Made by a program: the position numbers and the translations under genes. Shown here one piece after another: positions 49,825 to 62,844 of a stretch of DNA of 64,000 nucleotides. Source of the DNA: Burkholderiales bacterium. Lineage in GTDB: Bacteria > Pseudomonadota > Gammaproteobacteria > Burkholderiales > Burkholderiaceae_C. The notes under the pieces were generated by a model, which was not told where the DNA came from, did not search any database, and worked only from the letters and a program-made list of their open reading frames with translations. The stretch is from contig JACPUE010000004.1 in the NCBI GenBank assembly GCA_016192425.1, positions 1 to 64,000 on the forward strand. Direction: 5' to 3'. Within the stretch, counting starts at the first letter, position 1; each line of letters begins with the position of its first letter.

Positions 49825-51000
49825 ATGGAGCCCCGCACCACCATGAGCCGCCGCGATTTTCTTTTGCGCACCCTGGCCGCCGCCACGCTGCCCGCCTGGA
49901 CGCACCACAGCCACGCTGCCGAAACCGATGGGGCGGGGCGCCTGGTCACCCTGGGCTGTTCCATGGCCTTGTCGGGTCCCTTGGGGGCTGCAGGGCTGGA
50001 GCAGGTGGCGGGCATGAAAGCCGCCTTCCAGGAGGTGAACCGCGCAGGTGGCATCCACGGGCGCGAGATCGCACTGGAAGTCATGGACGACGCTTATGTG
50101 CCGGCCCGAACGCTCAAGAACGTGACCGAGATGGTGGACGCCAAGTCCGTCTTCGCACTGATTTCACCCATGGGCACGGCCAACACGGCGGCCCTGCTGC
50201 CGCTCATCGAAGGCAAGGGCATACCGACCGTCGGGCCCATCACAGGCGCACCGTCGGTGCGCAGCCCAGAGCAGCGCAACCTGTTCTTCCTGCGTCCCAG
50301 CTATGCCGATGAGGCGCGCCGCCTGGTGCAGCAGATGGTCTCCATGGGCCTGCGGCGCATTGCCGTGGTGTACCTGGACAACCCTTTCGGAAAAGAAGTG
50401 CTGGGCTACATGTCCACCGCACTGGACGAAGCACAGGTGGAACGTGCCGGCGCCTTTGCCCTGGCCGTGGACGGCAAGAACGGTGAGGAAGTGGCCGACA
50501 AGGTCTATGCCGACAAGCCGGGCGCCGTAGTGCTGGCCACCACGGGCACGGCCAACACAGCCTTTGTGCTGCCATTCCGTGCGCGCACCAAGACTGTTCC
50601 GCTGGCCGGTCTCTCGGTGACCTTGTTTGTTTCGGAGCTGCCCAAGCTGGGCGACGCCACCCGTGGGATGGCCGCAGTGCAGGTGTTTCCGGATGCCACG
50701 TCCACCAAATCGGTGGCAGTGCGCAGGTTCCAGACCTCCATGAAGAACGCAGGCGCCAAGCCAGAGTACCTGACCAGCTCAAGCAGCCTGGAAGGCTGGA
50801 TCAATGCCCAGGTCATGATCGAAGGCCTGCGCAATGCGGGCAAGGACCTCAGCCGCGAGCGCTTGCGCGCCGGGTTGGCGGGCATTCGCTCGCTGTCGTT
50901 TGGAGATTTCCATGTGGGCTTTGGCAACAGGGCGCCCTACGTGGGGTCGAGCACGTTGTATCTGGCCATTTATGCCGAGAACGGGCGGCGTGTGAGCTGA
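49825..51000 (+). CDS. Branched-chain amino acid type ABC substrate-binding protein
   Basis: A 391-residue periplasmic binding protein of the Peripla_BP_6 family. The N-terminus has a Tat-like MSRRDFLLRTLAAATLPAW then HSHA cleavage region. The mature part starts at LVTLGCSMALSGPLGAAG. Ligand-contact regions PITGAPSVRSPEQRN and LDNPFGKEVLGYM are present. ATG at 49825 or 49843 may be the start; the second begins just before the twin Arg. No Liv permease or ATPase gene is nearby, so it is an orphan receptor. Such proteins sometimes serve as sensors for adjacent kinases, and a hybrid kinase gene follows 167 bp downstream. Confidence 0.88.
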   Translation: MEPRTTMSRRDFLLRTLAAATLPAWTHHSHAAETDGAGRLVTLGCSMALSGPLGAAGLEQVAGMKAAFQEVNRAGGIHGREIALEVMDDAYVPARTLKNVTEMVDAKSVFALISPMGTANTAALLPLIEGKGIPTVGPITGAPSVRSPEQRNLFFLRPSYADEARRLVQQMVSMGLRRIAVVYLDNPFGKEVLGYMSTALDEAQVERAGAFALAVDGKNGEEVADKVYADKPGAVVLATTGTANTAFVLPFRARTKTVPLAGLSVTLFVSELPKLGDATRGMAAVQVFPDATSTKSVAVRRFQTSMKNAGAKPEYLTSSSSLEGWINAQVMIEGLRNAGKDLSRERLRAGLAGIRSLSFGDFHVGFGNRAPYVGSSTLYLAIYAENGRRVS

Positions 51001-51167
51001 TGCCCAAGGGCTTGCGCTAGCTCAAAAAGAGCCCGCATCGCGCGGACAAATGCCGCGCTGCAGATTGACGTGTAGGTCAACCGCTGCCGATACTCGCCCA
51101 CAGATCGACGCCTTCCCCTGTCGCCCCGTCCAGGCGCGTGCGGGGGGCGGTTCACCTGGGAGGGGCC

Positions 51168-55928
<4,761 letters not shown>

Positions 55929-55941
55929 CGCCTGGTCTGAT

Positions 55942-56850
55942 TCAGCGCACCTTGAGCACGTGGCGGTTGCGTCCTGCGCTCTTGGCTTCATAGAGCGCAG
56001 CATCGGCCAGATCGACCAGCGCCTGGTGCGGCTCGTCGGCGCGGGGCACCACGGTGGCCACGCCCAGGCTGATGGTCACGTGGTCGTGCGTGCCCGATTT
56101 GGCGTGTTCCAGCGCACGGGCCAGGATGCCCAGGCGGATTTGCTCGGCCAGGTTGGCGGCGCCGGCGCTGTCGGTGCTGGGAAGCACGCAGGCAAACTCT
56201 TCACCGCCACAGCGCGCCACCAGATCGGAGGGGCGCGTCACGCAGTTGTCCAGCGTGCGCGCCACCTCGATCAGGCATTGGTCGCCGCCAGGGTGCCCGT
56301 AATGGTCGTTGTAGGCCTTGAAGTGGTCGATGTCGATGGCGATCAAAGAAATGGGGGCCTGCTCACGCACTGCGCGGCGCCATTCAAGCTCCAGAAAGTC
56401 ATCGAACCGGCGCCGGTTGCTGATGCCGGTGAGGTGGTCCTGCGTGGTCAGGCGCTGCAGCAGGTCGCGGCTGCGCTTGAGTTCCAGGTGGTTGCGCACG
56501 CGCGCCTGCACGATCGAGGGCCGGATCGGCTTGACAATGTAGTCGATGGCGCCCAGCGACAACCCCCTTGCTTCGTCCTCCTCCTCGTCGCGCGAGGAGA
56601 CAAACAACACCGGAATGTTGGCCGTGGCGGCATGGCCCTTGAGGCGCCTGCAGACCTCGTACCCGTCCATGCCAGGCATCATCACGTCCAGCAGGATGAG
56701 ATCGGGCGGCGGCTCGGCCTGGGCCAGCGCCAGGGCGCGCTCGCCGTTCAAGGCCACCTTGACCTTGTAGTGCTCTTTCAGAACGGCAGAAAGAACCTGC
56801 AGGTTCTCGGGCGAGTCATCCACCACCAGGATCGTTGCCTGTGCATCCAT
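55942..56850 (-). CDS. Response regulator with GGDEF output
   Basis: A 302-residue protein: receiver domain (about residues 6-120; ILVVDDSPENLQVLSAVLK, phosphorylated Asp in LILLDVMMPGMDGYEV) and GGDEF domain (about 140-300). Active site CGGEEFACVLP with I-site RPSD five residues before. The start MDAQATILVVD is chosen because GGAG lies 8 bases upstream; the ATG 24 bases earlier has no ribosome site. It is the probable phosphotransfer partner of the facing hybrid kinase, raising c-di-GMP on phosphorylation. The pairing is inferred from adjacency. Confidence 0.92.
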   Translation of the reverse strand: MDAQATILVVDDSPENLQVLSAVLKEHYKVKVALNGERALALAQAEPPPDLILLDVMMPGMDGYEVCRRLKGHAATANIPVLFVSSRDEEEDEARGLSLGAIDYIVKPIRPSIVQARVRNHLELKRSRDLLQRLTTQDHLTGISNRRRFDDFLELEWRRAVREQAPISLIAIDIDHFKAYNDHYGHPGGDQCLIEVARTLDNCVTRPSDLVARCGGEEFACVLPSTDSAGAANLAEQIRLGILARALEHAKSGTHDHVTISLGVATVVPRADEPHQALVDLADAALYEAKSAGRNRHVLKVR

Positions 56851-57013
56851 CAGCTTGTCTCCGTACTTCGCCATGGGCGCTGGTTTTGCTGAATGTGTAT
56901 TGCGCACCAGCATAGGGGCGTGGCGGTGCCTTGTGCACAAAAAAACGGCGTGTTCTGTGCTGGATCAATGCTGCGGCGCAGCCTTCCTGCGGGAGTCGCG
57001 CAGGCGACAAGTT

Positions 57014-57604
57014 CTAAATGCCCAGCGCGCCCAGCAAGGCGCCAGCACCCAGCAGCCATAGCAGGTGCAGGCGGGTGCGCCATACCAGCACGGCCACCAC
57101 GGCGGCCAGCAGCCACAGGAGCGCGTCGGTGGCCGGGTTGCCCTGGCCGCGGCCCAGCACCCAGGTGGCAGCCATCAGCAGGCCGATGACCACTGGCGCC
57201 ATGCCTTGCCTGAAGGCCCGCACCGCGCGCCGCTGCCGGTTGCGGTGGGCCCAGCGCGTGGCCAGCCAGGTCAGTGTGGTGCTGGGCAGCATGATCCCCA
57301 CCATGCACACCAGTGCCCCCCACAGGCCCAGGATCCAGCCCCAGGGGCTGGCACCTGCGGCGTTGAGGCCCACATGCCAGCCGATCAGTGCGACAAACAA
57401 GACGTTGGGCCCTGGCGCTGCCTGGGCGATGGCTATGCTGGCGTTGAACTGCACGTCGGTCAGCCAGCCCTGCTGGTTGACCAGAAAGCGGTGCATGTCT
57501 GGCGCTGTGGCAATGGCGCCGCCCACGGCCAGCAGCGAGATCGACAGGTAGTAGAGAAACAGGTTCAGCCAGTCCACAGGCTGCAGTGCAAAGGCTTGGG
57601 TCAT
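57014..57604 (-). CDS. chrA: Chromate transporter, short chain (half 2)
   Basis: A 196-residue membrane protein equal to one half of ChrA. Six hydrophobic segments. Family motifs are GGAIATAPDMHRFLVNQQGW and AQAAPGPNVLFVALIGWHVG. Its start overlaps the stop of the upstream half by 4 bases (ATGA), so they are translationally coupled and work as a heterodimer. Short-chain CHR pairs are common in proteobacteria; a chromate or sulfate-linked transport role is by family only. Confidence 0.88.
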   Translation of the reverse strand: MTQAFALQPVDWLNLFLYYLSISLLAVGGAIATAPDMHRFLVNQQGWLTDVQFNASIAIAQAAPGPNVLFVALIGWHVGLNAAGASPWGWILGLWGALVCMVGIMLPSTTLTWLATRWAHRNRQRRAVRAFRQGMAPVVIGLLMAATWVLGRGQGNPATDALLWLLAAVVAVLVWRTRLHLLWLLGAGALLGALGI

Positions 57605-58194
57605 GGCGCCAGCCTCCGCCAGGTGAGTATGCAGGCCATGCCGCCCAGCACCAGCAGCACGCCGTACAGCGGTATATGCCACCACGCCACCGCCACAAAG
57701 GTGGCCAGCGCCAGTGCACCGCAAACCCAGGGGCCCAGCACATGCGTGTGCAGTGCCGCCGCCAGCTTGAGGGCCATGCCCCCGATGAGGCCCGACGCCA
57801 CGGCCCCCATGCCGCGCAGCGCCCCCGCCATGGCCGGGTGCGTGGCCCATTGGGCATAGAGCAGCGCAGCCGCCAGCGCCAGCACCATGGGCAGCGCGAG
57901 CATGCCCGCCAGCGCCGCCAGGCCGCCGCGCAGGCCGAAGTGGCGGTCGCCAATCATCAGCGACAGGTTCACCACATTGGGCCCGGGCATCACCTGGGCC
58001 ACGGCCCAGTCTTCGAGGAATTCCTCATTGGTCATCCAGCGCTTTTTTTCGACCAGCTCGCGCTGCACCACCGCCACCACGCCGCCAAAACCCTGCAGCG
58101 CCAACCAGGTGAAGGACCAGAACAGGTCCGCAGGGCTTTGCGGCCGGGGGCGATCCTGCAGGTCAGCGGCGGTCGGGGAGGGCTTGGGTGACAT
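57601..58194 (-). CDS. chrA: Chromate transporter, short chain (half 1)
   Basis: A 197-residue membrane protein with the N-terminal-half CHR motifs FGGVVAVVQRELVEKKRW (about residues 36-53) and AQVMPGPNVVNLSLMIG (about 65-81). Six hydrophobic helices. It is coupled with the other half by a 4-base overlap. A TTG/ATG-rich leader is absent and the start MSPKPSPTAADLQ gives a short cytoplasmic lead. The repeat copy 5 lies 36 bp upstream. Confidence 0.88.
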   Translation of the reverse strand: MSPKPSPTAADLQDRPRPQSPADLFWSFTWLALQGFGGVVAVVQRELVEKKRWMTNEEFLEDWAVAQVMPGPNVVNLSLMIGDRHFGLRGGLAALAGMLALPMVLALAAALLYAQWATHPAMAGALRGMGAVASGLIGGMALKLAAALHTHVLGPWVCGALALATFVAVAWWHIPLYGVLLVLGGMACILTWRRLAP

Positions 58195-58798: not shown

Positions 58799-58875
58799 TG
58801 GCCTGCCCGGAGGGACTCGAACCCCCGACCTATAGCTTAGAAGGCTATTGCTCTATCCAGTTGAGCTACGGGCAG
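58799..58875 (-). tRNA. tRNA-Arg (TCT)
   Basis: The minus strand folds into a 77-base tRNA including CCA. The acceptor stem is CTGCCCG/CGGGCAG with G73, the D arm is GCTC-AACTGGATA-GAGC, the anticodon stem is ATAGC/GCTAT with loop CTTCTAA (anticodon TCT), and the T arm is GGGGG-TTCGAGT-CCCTC. It reads the arginine codons AGA and AGG, rare in such a GC-rich genome. Confidence 0.96.
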
Positions 58876-58925: not shown

Positions 58926-60668
58926 TCACTCCAATTCCTCGAACACCAGGCTGGGCGTGGCCATGACGCGCACCACGTCTTCGGGCCGCTCGATCAGCCC
59001 CTGGCCAGGGTAGCCAAAGGGGGTGCCGGCTTCCAGCGCGGCGACGGCGACGTTGGCCAGGGACTGGTTCAGCGGTACGTAGTAGCTGCCAGCCGGCACG
59101 TCGATGGTACTGCGCGCCAACGGGCTAGCCCCTTGAGGCGGGGTGGTTTCGGCCAGCACGGTGCCGGGTTCAGCCACGCGCAATACCTGCAGGCCGTGCA
59201 GGCGCAGCCTCTCGACCGCGTTCAGTGCCGTCGGCGCGATCCAGTAGCCGCAGGGGCGTGCGCGCTCCAGCGTGGGGCTCAGGCGCAGTGCGCTGTCCCA
59301 GTCCACGCGCAGCGGCATGTCGGCGCCGGTGTCCGGGTTCAGCAAGGTGAGTTCGCGGGTTTCTGCCGTATGCGCAGCCTGCACCAGTACCTTGTTGCGG
59401 CATGCCAAGGCCACGGTGTCGCGGACTACGAAGGAGTGGACCTGCTCCAGGCGCGCGGCACGTTCGGAGGCAATGCGCAGTGCGGTGGCCATGGCGTTGA
59501 CCTGGGTGTGCACCCGGCGCTGGATGTGGCTGCGCCCCAGGCCTACGCCACGGCTGGCCACGCGCAGGCTCACGGCGTGCTTGAGGCCCATCAGGTTGCG
59601 GCCGTTGTCGGGTTGCACGCTGTCCATGACCATGCGGCGCTCACCGGGTTGGGCAGACGGGCTGTGCGCCCATTCCACGGCCAGGCCCAGGCCTTGCAGC
59701 GCCTGCTCCAGTGGTTGATGCATCCACTCGCGTGCGGCCTTGGTCACGAATTCGTGGACATTGCCGGTGGTGGCGTAGCTCAGGTGTGCATCGTGCCGGT
59801 TCAGGCCGCCAAACTGGGCCAGCACGGCGCCTCCGGCGGGGAATTCGTCGCTGTCGAGCACCACCATGGGCCGGAAGTCGCGCACCAGCTGTGCCACAGC
59901 GCGGGCTTCGGGTGTCTGCAGCAGCAAGTGGTCACGCTGCAGGTCGGTGCCGTCGGCCGTGGAGGCGGTGCCAGCCTCGGCCCCGTCGGGGTTGGCGCGC
60001 GGCACGATGACCACGTTGATCCGCTCCAGCAAAGGGGCCAGCAGGCCTTGCGCCAGTTCCTGGGCCACCACCAGCAGGGCTTCGCTGGAAGCGGGCGCGT
60101 CGCCATGTTGCTGCCCGACGAGAAGCACGGTAGGGCGTTTGCTTTCGGCCAAGGCCTGGGGGCGGTCGTCGCGCTCCTGGGTCAGCACCAGGGCGTACAT
60201 CGGCGCCCCGCGCTGCGTGGGCCCCAGCTGCAGCACCGTCGCACGGGTTGCTGGCGGCGTCGTTTGCCGGGCCAGGGCGTGCAGCCACTGGCCGATTTCG
60301 GCGTTGGTGGTGAAGGCGCGGCGTTCGGGCTGCAGGCCGGGGGTGTGGTAGAGGATGGCCGGGTCTGGGAACCGTGCAGCCACTTCGGGGCTGTAAGGCA
60401 GGTCGGGCAGGGTGCCGGTCAGCGGAGCGAGTGATGGACGCACCACGGCCGCAGCGGTCGCACCATCGGCCGTGCGCGGTACCGGCGCGGGCAGCACCAC
60501 GCCTGGACGGGCCAAGGGCGCCTGCCCTGGGCGGCTGGGCGGTGGCACAGTGCGTACCGGGGGCGGAGGGCGGCTTGCATTGCGCTCAGGCCAGGGCGGC
60601 AGCGGGGTGCTGGCGCAGCCCCCCAGCAAGGCGCTGGCGAGCGCTATGGCCGCAAGCGGCGACGGCAT
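58926..60668 (-). CDS. M14 carboxypeptidase-like lipoprotein, catalytic residues apparently lost
   Basis: A 580-residue protein with a lipoprotein signal (ALASALLGGCAS, lipid Cys near residue 18), a Pro/Arg-rich linker to about residue 75, and a zinc-carboxypeptidase-like M14 domain. The zinc motif normally reading HGxE is HGDA (His188-Ala191). The usual third His region (DAHEY) reads DSDEF (Asp272-Phe276). The catalytic Glu region (VETRG in the homologues I recall) reads VASRG (Ala371). The conserved Asn-Arg pair reads QRDH. If this comparison is right, it cannot bind zinc normally and is a pseudopeptidase. The ATG at 60668 is chosen for the lipoprotein signal; the ribosome site is weak. It stands just after tRNA-Arg. 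Confidence 0.8.
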   Translation of the reverse strand: MPSPLAAIALASALLGGCASTPLPPWPERNASRPPPPVRTVPPPSRPGQAPLARPGVVLPAPVPRTADGATAAAVVRPSLAPLTGTLPDLPYSPEVAARFPDPAILYHTPGLQPERRAFTTNAEIGQWLHALARQTTPPATRATVLQLGPTQRGAPMYALVLTQERDDRPQALAESKRPTVLLVGQQHGDAPASSEALLVVAQELAQGLLAPLLERINVVIVPRANPDGAEAGTASTADGTDLQRDHLLLQTPEARAVAQLVRDFRPMVVLDSDEFPAGGAVLAQFGGLNRHDAHLSYATTGNVHEFVTKAAREWMHQPLEQALQGLGLAVEWAHSPSAQPGERRMVMDSVQPDNGRNLMGLKHAVSLRVASRGVGLGRSHIQRRVHTQVNAMATALRIASERAARLEQVHSFVVRDTVALACRNKVLVQAAHTAETRELTLLNPDTGADMPLRVDWDSALRLSPTLERARPCGYWIAPTALNAVERLRLHGLQVLRVAEPGTVLAETTPPQGASPLARSTIDVPAGSYYVPLNQSLANVAVAALEAGTPFGYPGQGLIERPEDVVRVMATPSLVFEELE

Positions 60669-60985
60669 TTTCACCCATGCAGCCAGATGTCGGGTGCTGG
60701 TGTGGGGAATAGAGTTTGAGCGAAGCAGGTGGAAAGGGCTCATGCGTGGACCACGGTGCCCAGGCGCCGCCACATGGGGCCGGGGTTGGGCGGCATATTA
60801 CCCGCGAAGCCGCGGTGCTGCGGCAGGTGCACGCAGCCATGTGTGCCCGGTTGCATGCCCCGCTGTGCGAGCCAGGCCTGGGATTGCCCCAATGGACAAA
60901 GCGCCAGCAGCTATCAATTCAATAGCTGCTGGCGCTTGCTGGATGTGCCTTGGCTGCAATTTCTTACAAATATGCAGCCGCAGAA
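60669..60985. other. Intergenic region with repeat hairpin
   Basis: No gene is supported here. The part next to the lipoprotein gene must carry its promoter; no clear -35/-10 was found. The notable element is the perfect hairpin at 60899-60937, described separately. Bases 60940-60985 are AT-richer (CAATTTCTTACAAATATG). Confidence 0.45.
60899..60937. repeat. Dispersed repeat copy 6, perfect hairpin form
   Basis: AAGCGCCAGCAGCTAT-CAATTCA-ATAGCTGCTGGCGCTT is a perfect 16-bp stem with a 7-base loop. It carries the same AAGCGC-N-GCAGCTAT core as the other copies. It lies between the M14-like and rhlE genes (both minus strand). The hairpin may end rhlE transcripts or stabilise their 3' ends, but lacks a T run. 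Confidence 0.75.
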
Positions 60986-61203
60986 CGTGCCGTGCCCGAG
61001 GGCGGGCGCGGCTTCAAAGGGTTCAGCGGTTGAAACCGCGTGGGCCGCCTCGGCGGCGGCCACGGTCGGCCATGCTGTCGATGCTGGTACGCATCGTGCC
61101 GTGCCCGAGGGCGGGCGCGGCTTCAAAGGGTTCAGCGGTTGAAACCGCGTGGGCCGCCTCGGCGGCGGCCACGGTCGGCCATGCTGTCGATGCTGGTACG
61201 CAT
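60986..61203. repeat. Perfect 109-bp tandem duplication at the 3' end of rhlE
   Basis: Copy 1 (60986-61094) and copy 2 (61095-61203) are identical over all 109 bases by my reading. Each contains the last 23 codons of rhlE and its stop codon, plus a GC-rich hairpin GCCGTGCCCG-AGGG-CGGGCGCGGC (60989-61012 and 61098-61121; one mismatch). rhlE uses copy 2, next to the gene; copy 1 lies downstream as untranslated sequence. Confidence 0.9.
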
Positions 61204-62844
61204 GGGGTCGGGCTGGCCCGAGCCACCCATGCCCCGGCGCGCCTGAAGGTTCAGGCCGCTGTGGGTGCCCAGGTGGGCGTCGGGGCGCGGGGGCTGGTCC
61301 TCGTAGCGGTGCGACCCGCCAGCGCCCGGCGCTGCGCCGCTGCGGTTGCGGCCGCCACCTGCCTGGCCACCCGCTTGCTGCGGGCCCTGGCGATGGTTGC
61401 GGGGTGCCGGTTGCCCTTGGCGCGCGGCCTGCTGGCCGTGGCCATGTCCGGCACCGGCGTTGCTGCCCTGGCCTGCAGGCTTCTTGCGCTGGCCGTTGGC
61501 GCTGGTCTTGGCTGCAGCCGGGCTGTTGCCCTGGCGGCCGCCGCGTTCGCCTTGGGTGCCCTTGTTGGCGCGGATGCGGTCCATCATCTCGCTGCGGGCA
61601 GCCTTGGCGGCGGCCTGCATCACTTCGCGGCTCGGGGGTTTGCCAGCGCCGCCCCAGAGCGTCTGGCGGCCCATGGCGATGGGTTCGGCCTGTTCGCCTT
61701 CGTCCGGGCCAAAGCCCTCCAGGATCTGGACGGGGATTTCCTGCTTGGTGAAGCGCTCGATCTCCATCATGAAACCCTCTTCGTCCATGCAGACCAGGCT
61801 CACGGCCTGGCCTTCGCGCCCGGCGCGGCCCGTGCGGCCAATGCGGTGCACGTAGTCTTCGGGGACGTTGGGGATCTCGTAGTTGACGACGTGCGGCAGG
61901 TCGTCGATGTCGATGCCGCGCGCGGCAATGTCGGTGGCCACCAGGGCACGGATCTGGCCGGTCTTGAAACCCTCCAGCGCCTGGGTGCGCGCGCTCTGGC
62001 TCTTGTTGCCGTGCAGTGCCATGGCTGTGACGCCGTTCTTCTGCAGGAAGTCGGCCACGTTGTTGGCGCCAAACTTGGTGCGCGTGAACACCAGCACCTG
62101 GCTCCACTCGTTCTGCTGGATGATGTGCAGCAGCACCTGCTTTTTCTTGGCACGGCCCACCGGGTGGATGACCTGGCTGATGCGCTGCACCGTGGTGTTG
62201 CGCGGCGTGACCTGGATGCTTTGCGGGTTGCGCAGCAGGGTGTTGGCCAGTTCGCGGATTTCGTCGCTGAAGGTGGCCGAGAACAGCAGGCTTTGCTTGT
62301 CGCGCGGCAGCAGCGCAAGGATTTTCTTCACATCGTGGATGAAGCCCATGTCCAGCATGCGGTCGGCTTCGTCAAGCACCAGCACCTCGACCGTGGACAG
62401 GTCCAGGTGCCCTTGCTGCTGCAGATCCAAAAGGCGGCCGGGCGTGGCTACCAGAAAGTCCACGCCGCGCTGGATGCGGTCGATCTGCGGGTTCATGCCC
62501 ACGCCGCCGAAGATCACCGTGGAGTCCAGATCGAGGTACTTGCCGTAGGTGCGGATGGATTCCTCGACCTGTGCGGCCAGCTCGCGCGTGGGCGTCAGTA
62601 CCAGGGCACGCAGCCCCTTGCCGCCGCGCTTGCCTTGCGGTGCGGGCTGCTGCGCAAGGCGGTGCAGCAGCGGCAGCGTGAAGGCAGCGGTCTTGCCCGT
62701 GCCGGTCTGTGCGCCGGCCAGCAGATCCTGGCCCTGCAGCACGGCAGGAATGGCTTGCGCCTGGATCGGGGTGGGGGTTTCGTAGCCTTGCTCGCGCACG
62801 GCCTTCAGAATGGCCGGGGCCAGGTTCAGTTCGTCAAATGTCAT
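61132..62844 (-). CDS. rhlE: DEAD-box RNA helicase RhlE
   Basis: A 570-residue ATP-dependent RNA helicase. Q motif around [11 protein letters not shown], Walker A AQTGTGKT (about residues 44-51), DEAD box [10 protein letters not shown] (about 152-161), SAT in LLFSATFS, and motif [13 protein letters not shown]. The C-terminal 190 residues are rich in Gly, Gln, Arg and Pro and end [13 protein letters not shown]. The end of the gene has been tandemly duplicated, leaving a second copy of the last 23 codons and stop downstream. It is divergent from ettA with 244 bp between starts. Confidence 0.95.

Follow-up and report, generated by a model that had tools for sequence, protein, structure and literature searches.

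The locus considered here raises the question of what a peptidase gene is kept for once its active site has gone. The window, i.e., the whole stretch of 64,000 nucleotides that was analysed, carries a gene for an M14-like lipoprotein, which an earlier note had described as a pseudoenzyme devoid of its zinc and catalytic residues. Most work on pseudoenzymes concerns cases that arose once and long ago, in many instances following a gene duplication. In this family, orthologs, some of them in the same neighbourhood, grade from intact forms via forms lacking E270 only to forms in which most of the active site is lost. Homology, predicted fold, active-site losses, orthology to intact relatives and purifying selection are computational results. 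The window protein is probably an M14 pseudopeptidase under purifying selection, lipid-anchored, most likely in the outer membrane, and serving as a non-catalytic periplasmic binder or scaffold. The observations are better explained by its membership in a group of M14 lipoprotein pseudopeptidases, with several origins and retention by selection, than by decay.

Gene and domain architecture

The reading frame on the minus strand, from 60668 to the stop at 58926, is open and encodes 580 residues with no internal stop. The ATG at 60668 leaves the start of the signal peptide without a positive charge, which the in-frame GTG at 60674 (reading MKMPSPL) or the ATG at 60743 would supply; any of these codons may be the true start. 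The product matches the Pfam profile PF00246 with an E-value of 3.4e-11 and 43.8 bits, above the curated cut-off of 21.6, and all 52 members of alignment set A2 match the same profile at E <= 0.01. The features of the gene and its surroundings are collected in Table 1.

Table 1. Features of the M14-fold lipoprotein gene and its flanks, in window coordinates; active-site residues carry CPA numbers, followed by the residue of the window protein
Feature	Position	Strand	Basis and remarks
M14-fold lipoprotein gene	58926..60668	minus	580 aa + stop; alternative in-frame starts GTG 60674, ATG 60743, GTG 60773
Signal peptide with lipobox LGGC	60615..60668	minus	Sequence; Cys18 is the expected lipid-modified residue; +2 is Ala, not Asp
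Pro-rich tether (putative), ~residues 19-98	60375..60614	minus	Alignment; CxSTPLPPW opening in many rows; mostly pLDDT < 50 in the model
M14 carboxypeptidase-fold domain (predicted), ~residues 89-408	59445..60404	minus	VIA-align Z 19.0-21.5 among the matches listed
HGDA: H69 kept (188), E72 to Ala (191)	60096..60107	minus	Ortholog alignment and sequence
R127 equivalent to Ala (235)	59964..59966	minus	Ortholog alignment; absent from the earlier note
N144 to Gln (244), R145 kept (245)	59934..59939	minus	Ortholog alignment
Zinc ligand H196 to Asp (274, DSDEF)	59847..59849	minus	Ortholog alignment and sequence
Catalytic base E270 to Ala (371, ASRG)	59556..59558	minus	Ortholog alignment and sequence
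C-terminal beta-rich part (predicted), ~residues 409-580	58929..59444	minus	Models and alignment; present in intact and altered orthologs
tRNA-Arg (TCT), directly downstream	58799..58875	minus	Also 3' of some intact and some altered orthologs
RhlE-like DEAD-box helicase, upstream	61132..62844	minus	Neighbourhood scan; a neighbour, outside the mechanism

As in bacterial lipoproteins, a lipobox Cys follows a hydrophobic stretch (ALLGGC in the window protein). This column holds Cys in 125 of the 128 ungapped rows of a 139-row alignment, and among these 125 rows the +2 position is taken by S, A, G or T in 121 and by Asp in none. Since the lipoprotein sorting rule has it that a +2 residue other than Asp favours the outer membrane, the sequence suggests that the window protein is probably anchored there by its N-terminal lipid. 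The stretch behind the lipobox, with 22 Pro within residues 19-100, looks like a tether.

The AlphaFold2 model was built from an alignment of 52 sequences, namely, the window protein and 51 of the 80 named loci, and its numbering corresponds to the residue number plus 25. It reaches a mean pLDDT of 84.0 and a pTM of 0.80, with about the first 110 residues disordered, and predicts the three-dimensional fold of M14 peptidases. Compared with solved M14 structures by VIA-align, it gives Z-scores of 19.0-21.5 among the 50 matches listed, the best of those being 7eqx_C (Z 21.5, rmsd 3.0 over 249 residues). An intact ortholog from Simplicispira lacusdiani models to the same fold, with Z up to 22.6. 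The C-terminal part is beta-rich and predicted with confidence; no solved fold was assigned to it, the VIA-align rows listed barely extending that far, and a PHROGs search gave no match at E <= 0.01.

A search of the same genome with the window protein gave one match and no second close copy. Two other PF00246 genes, L177 and L179, are present, and inspection by eye shows HxxE, the third His and, at the E270 place, a Glu in both. The 418-aa ORF L179 reads HGDE and DLNRN, the latter being DLMRN in L177. M14 genes with a zinc site are thus not lacking from this genome.

Active-site residues of the window protein

Residues are numbered as in CPA, in which the Asn of the substrate clamp is at position 144. 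The places of H69, E72, R127, R145, H196 and E270 follow a table in a 2024 review of pseudo-metallopeptidases (PMC11266112).

In an alignment of 22 orthologs, the motifs fall into register without gaps, HGDE being replaced by HGDA, MNRD by LQRD, DAHEF by DSDEF, ETRG by ASRG and GTR by GTA. The altered residues sit at canonical places, and the four motif changes reported before (HGDA, DSDEF, ASRG and QR) were all recovered; a fifth, R127A, had been missed. The window protein carries E72A, R127A, N144Q, H196D and E270A, while H69 and R145 are kept, as are, within the DxHE motif, Asp (residue 272) and Glu (residue 275). The codons at 60096-60098 (Ala), 59847-59849 (Asp) and 59556-59558 (Ala) agree with these calls. 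The claim that zinc and catalytic residues are lost holds for the base E270 and the ligands E72 and H196, but H69 persists, so that two of the three zinc ligands are gone rather than all three.

Compared with an active M14 metallocarboxypeptidase, the window protein thus reads H, A and D at the zinc ligands H69, E72 and H196, A at the catalytic base E270, and A, Q and R at R127, N144 and R145. An M14 fold combined with lost catalytic residues places it among M14 pseudopeptidases, and zinc-dependent hydrolysis would be absent. The changes are concentrated at the active site: the window protein departs at five of the seven canonical columns vs. 15 of 105 others (Fisher p = 0.0019), these 112 columns being those at least 95% conserved in rows with intact core residues. 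A sequencing error is very unlikely because L002, L003 and L004, from three other genomes, likewise depart from the canon at the five positions, with residues identical to those of the window protein or different from them.

The retention of H69 and of the DxHE Asp and Glu would be compatible with an enzyme that has changed its chemistry or its metal, like Helicobacter Csd4 with its altered metal motif (QxxE...H). Csd4 is an M14 D,L-carboxypeptidase that binds metal via Gln46, Glu49 and His128 (PMC4220969). As this protein works with a changed metal motif, the sequence does not suffice to call an ortholog inactive when just one ligand is changed, and some such orthologs (e.g., L070, reading HERNRRE) could well still bind metal. 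The window protein, however, lacks the base as well as two ligands, and its nearest relatives differ from one another at the lost positions, unlike what a new fixed catalytic set would show: within L001-L004, position 196 reads D/G/G/G and position 127 A/A/T/P. Positions that are still changing argue against a new fixed active site, and a surviving enzyme of this kind is considered very unlikely.

Distribution and neighbourhood of the orthologs

The gene is present in 22 of the 26 genomes of the window's genus, and in 14 of the 15 that have at least 90% completeness and at most 5% contamination. At the family level, some match, in good part weak, was found in 192 of 399 genomes sampled from a larger group; with such a patchy presence, many bacteria do without the gene. 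The 139 aligned orthologs comprise 21 from the genus and a single one from a different family of the order; the remaining 117 stem from fetched regions (120 loci, from which the weak matches L174-L176 were left out). Split or short family matches (e.g., G082, G149, G303 and G412) lie outside this set and loci L031-L056 outside the alignment, whereas G434, the one further gene-bearing genome of the genus added by the genus survey, entered as L173.

All seven residues are kept in 91 of the 139 orthologs, and at least one is changed in the other 48. A zinc ligand or E270 is lost in 43 orthologs: 18 of these differ at a single core residue, and 25 have lost at least two of the four (H69, E72, H196 and E270). 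No row contains an internal stop. E270 alone is lost in L006, L105 and L111, which keep the metal ligands and the clamp residues, and L022, from another taxonomic family, has all seven residues intact. Given the 91 intact rows and L022, the intact active site would be the ancestral state. It might be objected that the intact family never was a zinc peptidase, in which case nothing was lost, and the literature searches turned up no assay of any member. Nevertheless, all seven canonical residues recur in most orthologs up to that of another family, and both the Pfam profile and the fold comparisons lead to zinc carboxypeptidases, which leaves this objection hardly any credit.

For the named loci, all seven residues are kept in 65 and not in 15 of 80, which are the best-scoring of at least 192 confirmed relatives and hence biased to query-like forms. 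The altered ones include those of Delftia tsuruhatensis NBRC 16741, Giesbergeria anulus ATCC 35958 and Polaromonas glacialis R3-9, and the intact ones those of Acidovorax facilis DSM 649 and Simplicispira lacusdiani CPCC 100842. Five loci (L013, L015, L018, L019 and L245) have an intact zinc site and E270 with N144 replaced by Asp or Ser and, in some, R127 by His, possibly reflecting a shift of specificity rather than a loss. L132 and L133, of genus code g136, are strongly diverged, with all three zinc ligands changed and E270 kept; L084 and L167, of the same genus code, are intact.

Of the 80 named loci, 31 have an RhlE match on the upstream side (weak in L214), including those of Acidovorax, Simplicispira, Giesbergeria and Delftia; none was found in the Polaromonas, Rhizobacter and Vandammella loci, and some of the 80 are too short to tell. 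The tRNA-Arg(TCT) gene is found downstream, up to ~2.2 kb off, in 11 of 26 scanned loci. Both genes flank the intact L244 and L202 as well as the altered L257 and L212. Intact and altered copies with the same two neighbours are orthologs and not members of a paralogous family. The neighbours examined (RhlE, ABC-F, Dus, isochorismatase, YebC, D-Tyr-tRNA deacylase, a histidine kinase and PrkA) are housekeeping or unrelated genes, those of L247 being less sure because the M14 gene itself is not among the ORFs picked there. No peptidoglycan link or partner gene was seen among the examined neighbourhoods.

Besides these genes, the window displays a perfect 109-bp tandem duplication in two copies at 60986-61203, between the M14 gene and rhlE; one copy (61095-61203) includes the 3' end of rhlE, and the other (60986-61094) is a stray duplicate of this end. 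An open frame of 1461 aa (50970-55355, minus) runs antisense to a gene for a 1596-aa hybrid PAS/histidine kinase/response regulator (51138-55928, plus) and is probably a product of high G+C rather than a gene. Two adjacent chromate-transporter (PF02417) frames on the minus strand, 57014-57850 and 57601-58194, resemble a split ChrA pair and adjoin a response regulator-GGDEF gene (55942-56940).

Separate losses of the active site

Several separate losses of active-site residues occurred within the family. A quick tree was computed from the 139 rows under LG+G4 and a careful one from 51 of them under a mixture model, with the active-site columns left out. On the quick tree, the character "zinc ligand or E270 changed" requires 10 changes, and also 10 if only losses are allowed. 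On the 51-row tree, the four core residues require 8 changes and the zinc site by itself 10; these counts do not by themselves separate loss from regain, and the 10 of the quick tree and the 8 of the careful one refer to different row sets. A grouping of the 31 core-altered rows of the 51-row set into one clade is rejected (p_AU 5e-54).

The window's genus forms one clade on the 51-row tree (support 99/97). A single clade of its 15 altered rows is not rejected (p_AU 0.24), so that E270 may have been lost once there, whereas the state of the zinc site requires at least four changes among the rows of the genus. The three relatives lacking only E270 point to an early loss of this residue, which probably disappeared before or together with the zinc ligands. 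A clade of 25 altered rows from several genera, seen on the quick tree, was split by the 51-row mixture tree and is a probable case of long-branch attraction; the new places of the altered rows from other genera have modest support (80-87 bootstrap).

Possible parallel changes beside the active site

In the 51-row set, residue 377 is Leu in 30 of the 31 core-altered vs. four of the 20 core-intact rows, and L369 is lost in 28 vs. three. In an independent-pairs test, Leu377 and the loss of L369 track core loss in ~5.5 and ~5.4 of six pairs, respectively, with a median sign-test p of 0.0625 each for columns that were picked after the alignment had been seen. Y334, G376, M348 and Q297 do so in 2.1, 2.1, 1.9 and 1.0 of six pairs. 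These figures are only suggestive of a region beside E270 that would be remodelled alike at each loss. A bolder proposal, more doubtful than probable, is that the main selected function of the family is non-catalytic and that peptidase activity is optional, switched off in about eight lineages, often via a similar loss of E270 and L369 and gain of Leu377. If true, the family would offer, in nature, a series of repeated conversions of an enzyme into a scaffold, and single genera would contain graded intermediates.

Selection on the altered orthologs

Selection remains on the altered forms, although somewhat relaxed. Retention was scored in 54 altered rows at the 66 columns that are at least 98% conserved in 133 distinct intact rows. 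The median retention is 0.98, and 53 of the 66 columns, among which that of the lipobox Cys, stay at 89% or more. The other 13 drop to 0.83 or less: L369, N244 (144), E371 (270), R235 (127), H274 (196), Y334, R245 (145), G376, M348, H188 (69), S367, Q297 and E191 (72), with CPA numbers in brackets. As the altered rows were defined by the seven canonical columns, the drop of those seven is circular. In a control in which rows were defined by the four core residues only (lost in 47 of 187 distinct rows), the three clamp residues fall to 0.38, 0.26 and 0.51, while the median over 105 other columns with at least 95% conservation is 0.957 (p = 0.0024); 10 of these 105 are also below 0.6. C-terminal residues held constant include R469, R471, G474 and Y475.

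The dN/dS calculation called for by the earlier note gave values mostly of 0.06-0.33, well under 1, indicating purifying selection. By the NG86 method, the window gene gives 0.12 against L002, 0.16 against L003 and 0.30 against L004, and the range among L001-L004 is 0.10-0.30 (0.21-0.30 for pairs with L004), with no stops; selection on the protein thus continued after catalytic loss. For 13 close altered pairs, dN/dS is 0.06-0.19 with a median of 0.120, vs. a median of 0.087 for 17 intact pairs (p = 0.036); these close pairs were chosen, and pairs of higher dN/dS (in g89, L005-L173, between the halves of g112 and with L004) lie outside that set. Higher ratios are found in the altered genus g89 (0.27-0.53), for L005-L173 (0.33) and between the g112 halves (0.30-0.32), while some intact pairs reach 0.56. 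The C-terminal part is less constrained when altered (0.176 vs. 0.092 in intact pairs). The raised values in altered pairs and genera mean that some of the relaxation is real.

A gene on its way out, in which catalysis became useless and constraint was relaxed first at the active site while the rest has yet to decay, would account for these raised ratios, including those of g89, L005-L173 and the pairs with L004, as well as for the patchy presence across the family. Nonetheless, dN/dS is 0.08-0.30 in two groups of altered relatives whose dS is already large (0.48-0.87 among L001-L004; 0.40-1.35 among L010, L011, L012 and L016), and no stops have appeared. Most of the near-invariant columns also persist in the altered rows, and nearly all good genomes of the genus have kept the gene. 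Decay is therefore regarded as quite unlikely. The original contention of a pseudoenzyme rather than random decay is supported by the low dN/dS, the lack of stops, the retention of most near-invariant columns and the separate losses of the same residues.

A proposed non-catalytic role in the periplasm

What the altered protein would do is best approached from what is kept. Lost positions are variable and two of the three clamp residues are gone, whereas the lipobox, most of the near-invariant M14 scaffold and some residues of the C-terminal part are constant, which favours non-catalytic binding or scaffolding. The role retained would be exerted in the periplasm via the conserved scaffold and not via the old active site. 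In the proposed arrangement, the N-terminal lipid would anchor the protein, and the Pro-rich tether would hold the M14-fold domain and the C-terminal beta-rich part in the periplasm. A plausible route leads from an enzyme to a protein that holds its substrate uncut, and then to a metal-free scaffold.

The earlier note had instead suggested that binding of peptides or peptidoglycan was kept through the old cleft, the protein acting, for instance, as a decoy or sensor. Such a function is conceivable for L006, L105 and L111, which could bind without cutting, and the lipobox does put the protein in the envelope. The idea is weakened, however, by the loss of R127 and N144, two of the three substrate-clamp residues, in the window lineage. 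Further conserved residues (L369, Y334 and Q297 as sequence columns) are changed as well, positions 196 and 127 keep changing among the nearest relatives, and the examined neighbour genes do not point to peptidoglycan. Binding through the old cleft is accordingly rated as unlikely, and a role in peptidoglycan or peptide sensing is a guess. If the window protein, as a non-catalytic binder or scaffold, does bind a ligand, the old substrate pocket would not be the obvious site. The graded series of orthologs would permit tests of the sequence in which catalysis, metal binding and binding of the substrate were abandoned, and of the function that remains.

Comparison with known systems

Among bacterial M14 members, the murein tripeptide amidase MpaA is the sole NCBIfam match of the window protein (E = 0.00097), but the score of 18.2 bits falls far below the NF007897 cut-off of 157. 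The MpaA alignments span the HGDE and DLNR stretches, the profile having 237 positions. Csd4 of Helicobacter pylori is similar to the window protein in being an M14 member with a changed metal motif; its metal remains bound, and it has been described as active (PMC4220969), whereas the window protein is devoid of two ligands and the base.

No bacterial M14 pseudopeptidase was found in the literature searched, and those named in the excerpted part of the 2024 review are from animals and yeast (PMC11266112). Among them, AEBP1, CPXM1, CPXM2 and Ecm14 resemble the window protein in combining an M14 fold with changes at catalytic or clamp positions (PMC11266112). They differ from it in being eukaryotic (vertebrates and yeast) and in carrying a discoidin domain or a prodomain.

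A carboxypeptidase D entry, 9j6z, is the first match of the window protein both by sequence and by Foldseek. A close parallel is domain III of carboxypeptidase D. Its zinc site reads H69, A72 and D196, just as in the window protein, and both proteins have replaced R127 as well as E270; domain III has T145, whereas the window protein keeps R145 (PMC11266112). The former is part of a eukaryotic transmembrane protein, in which it stands beside two active domains, whereas the latter is a bacterial lipoprotein with one M14 domain. The common H/A/D pattern would be convergent. The inactive carboxypeptidase D domain is reported to be necessary for the binding of a viral protein and to affect viability in the fly (PMC11266112). 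A group of bacterial M14 pseudopeptidases would widen the range known from animals and yeast.
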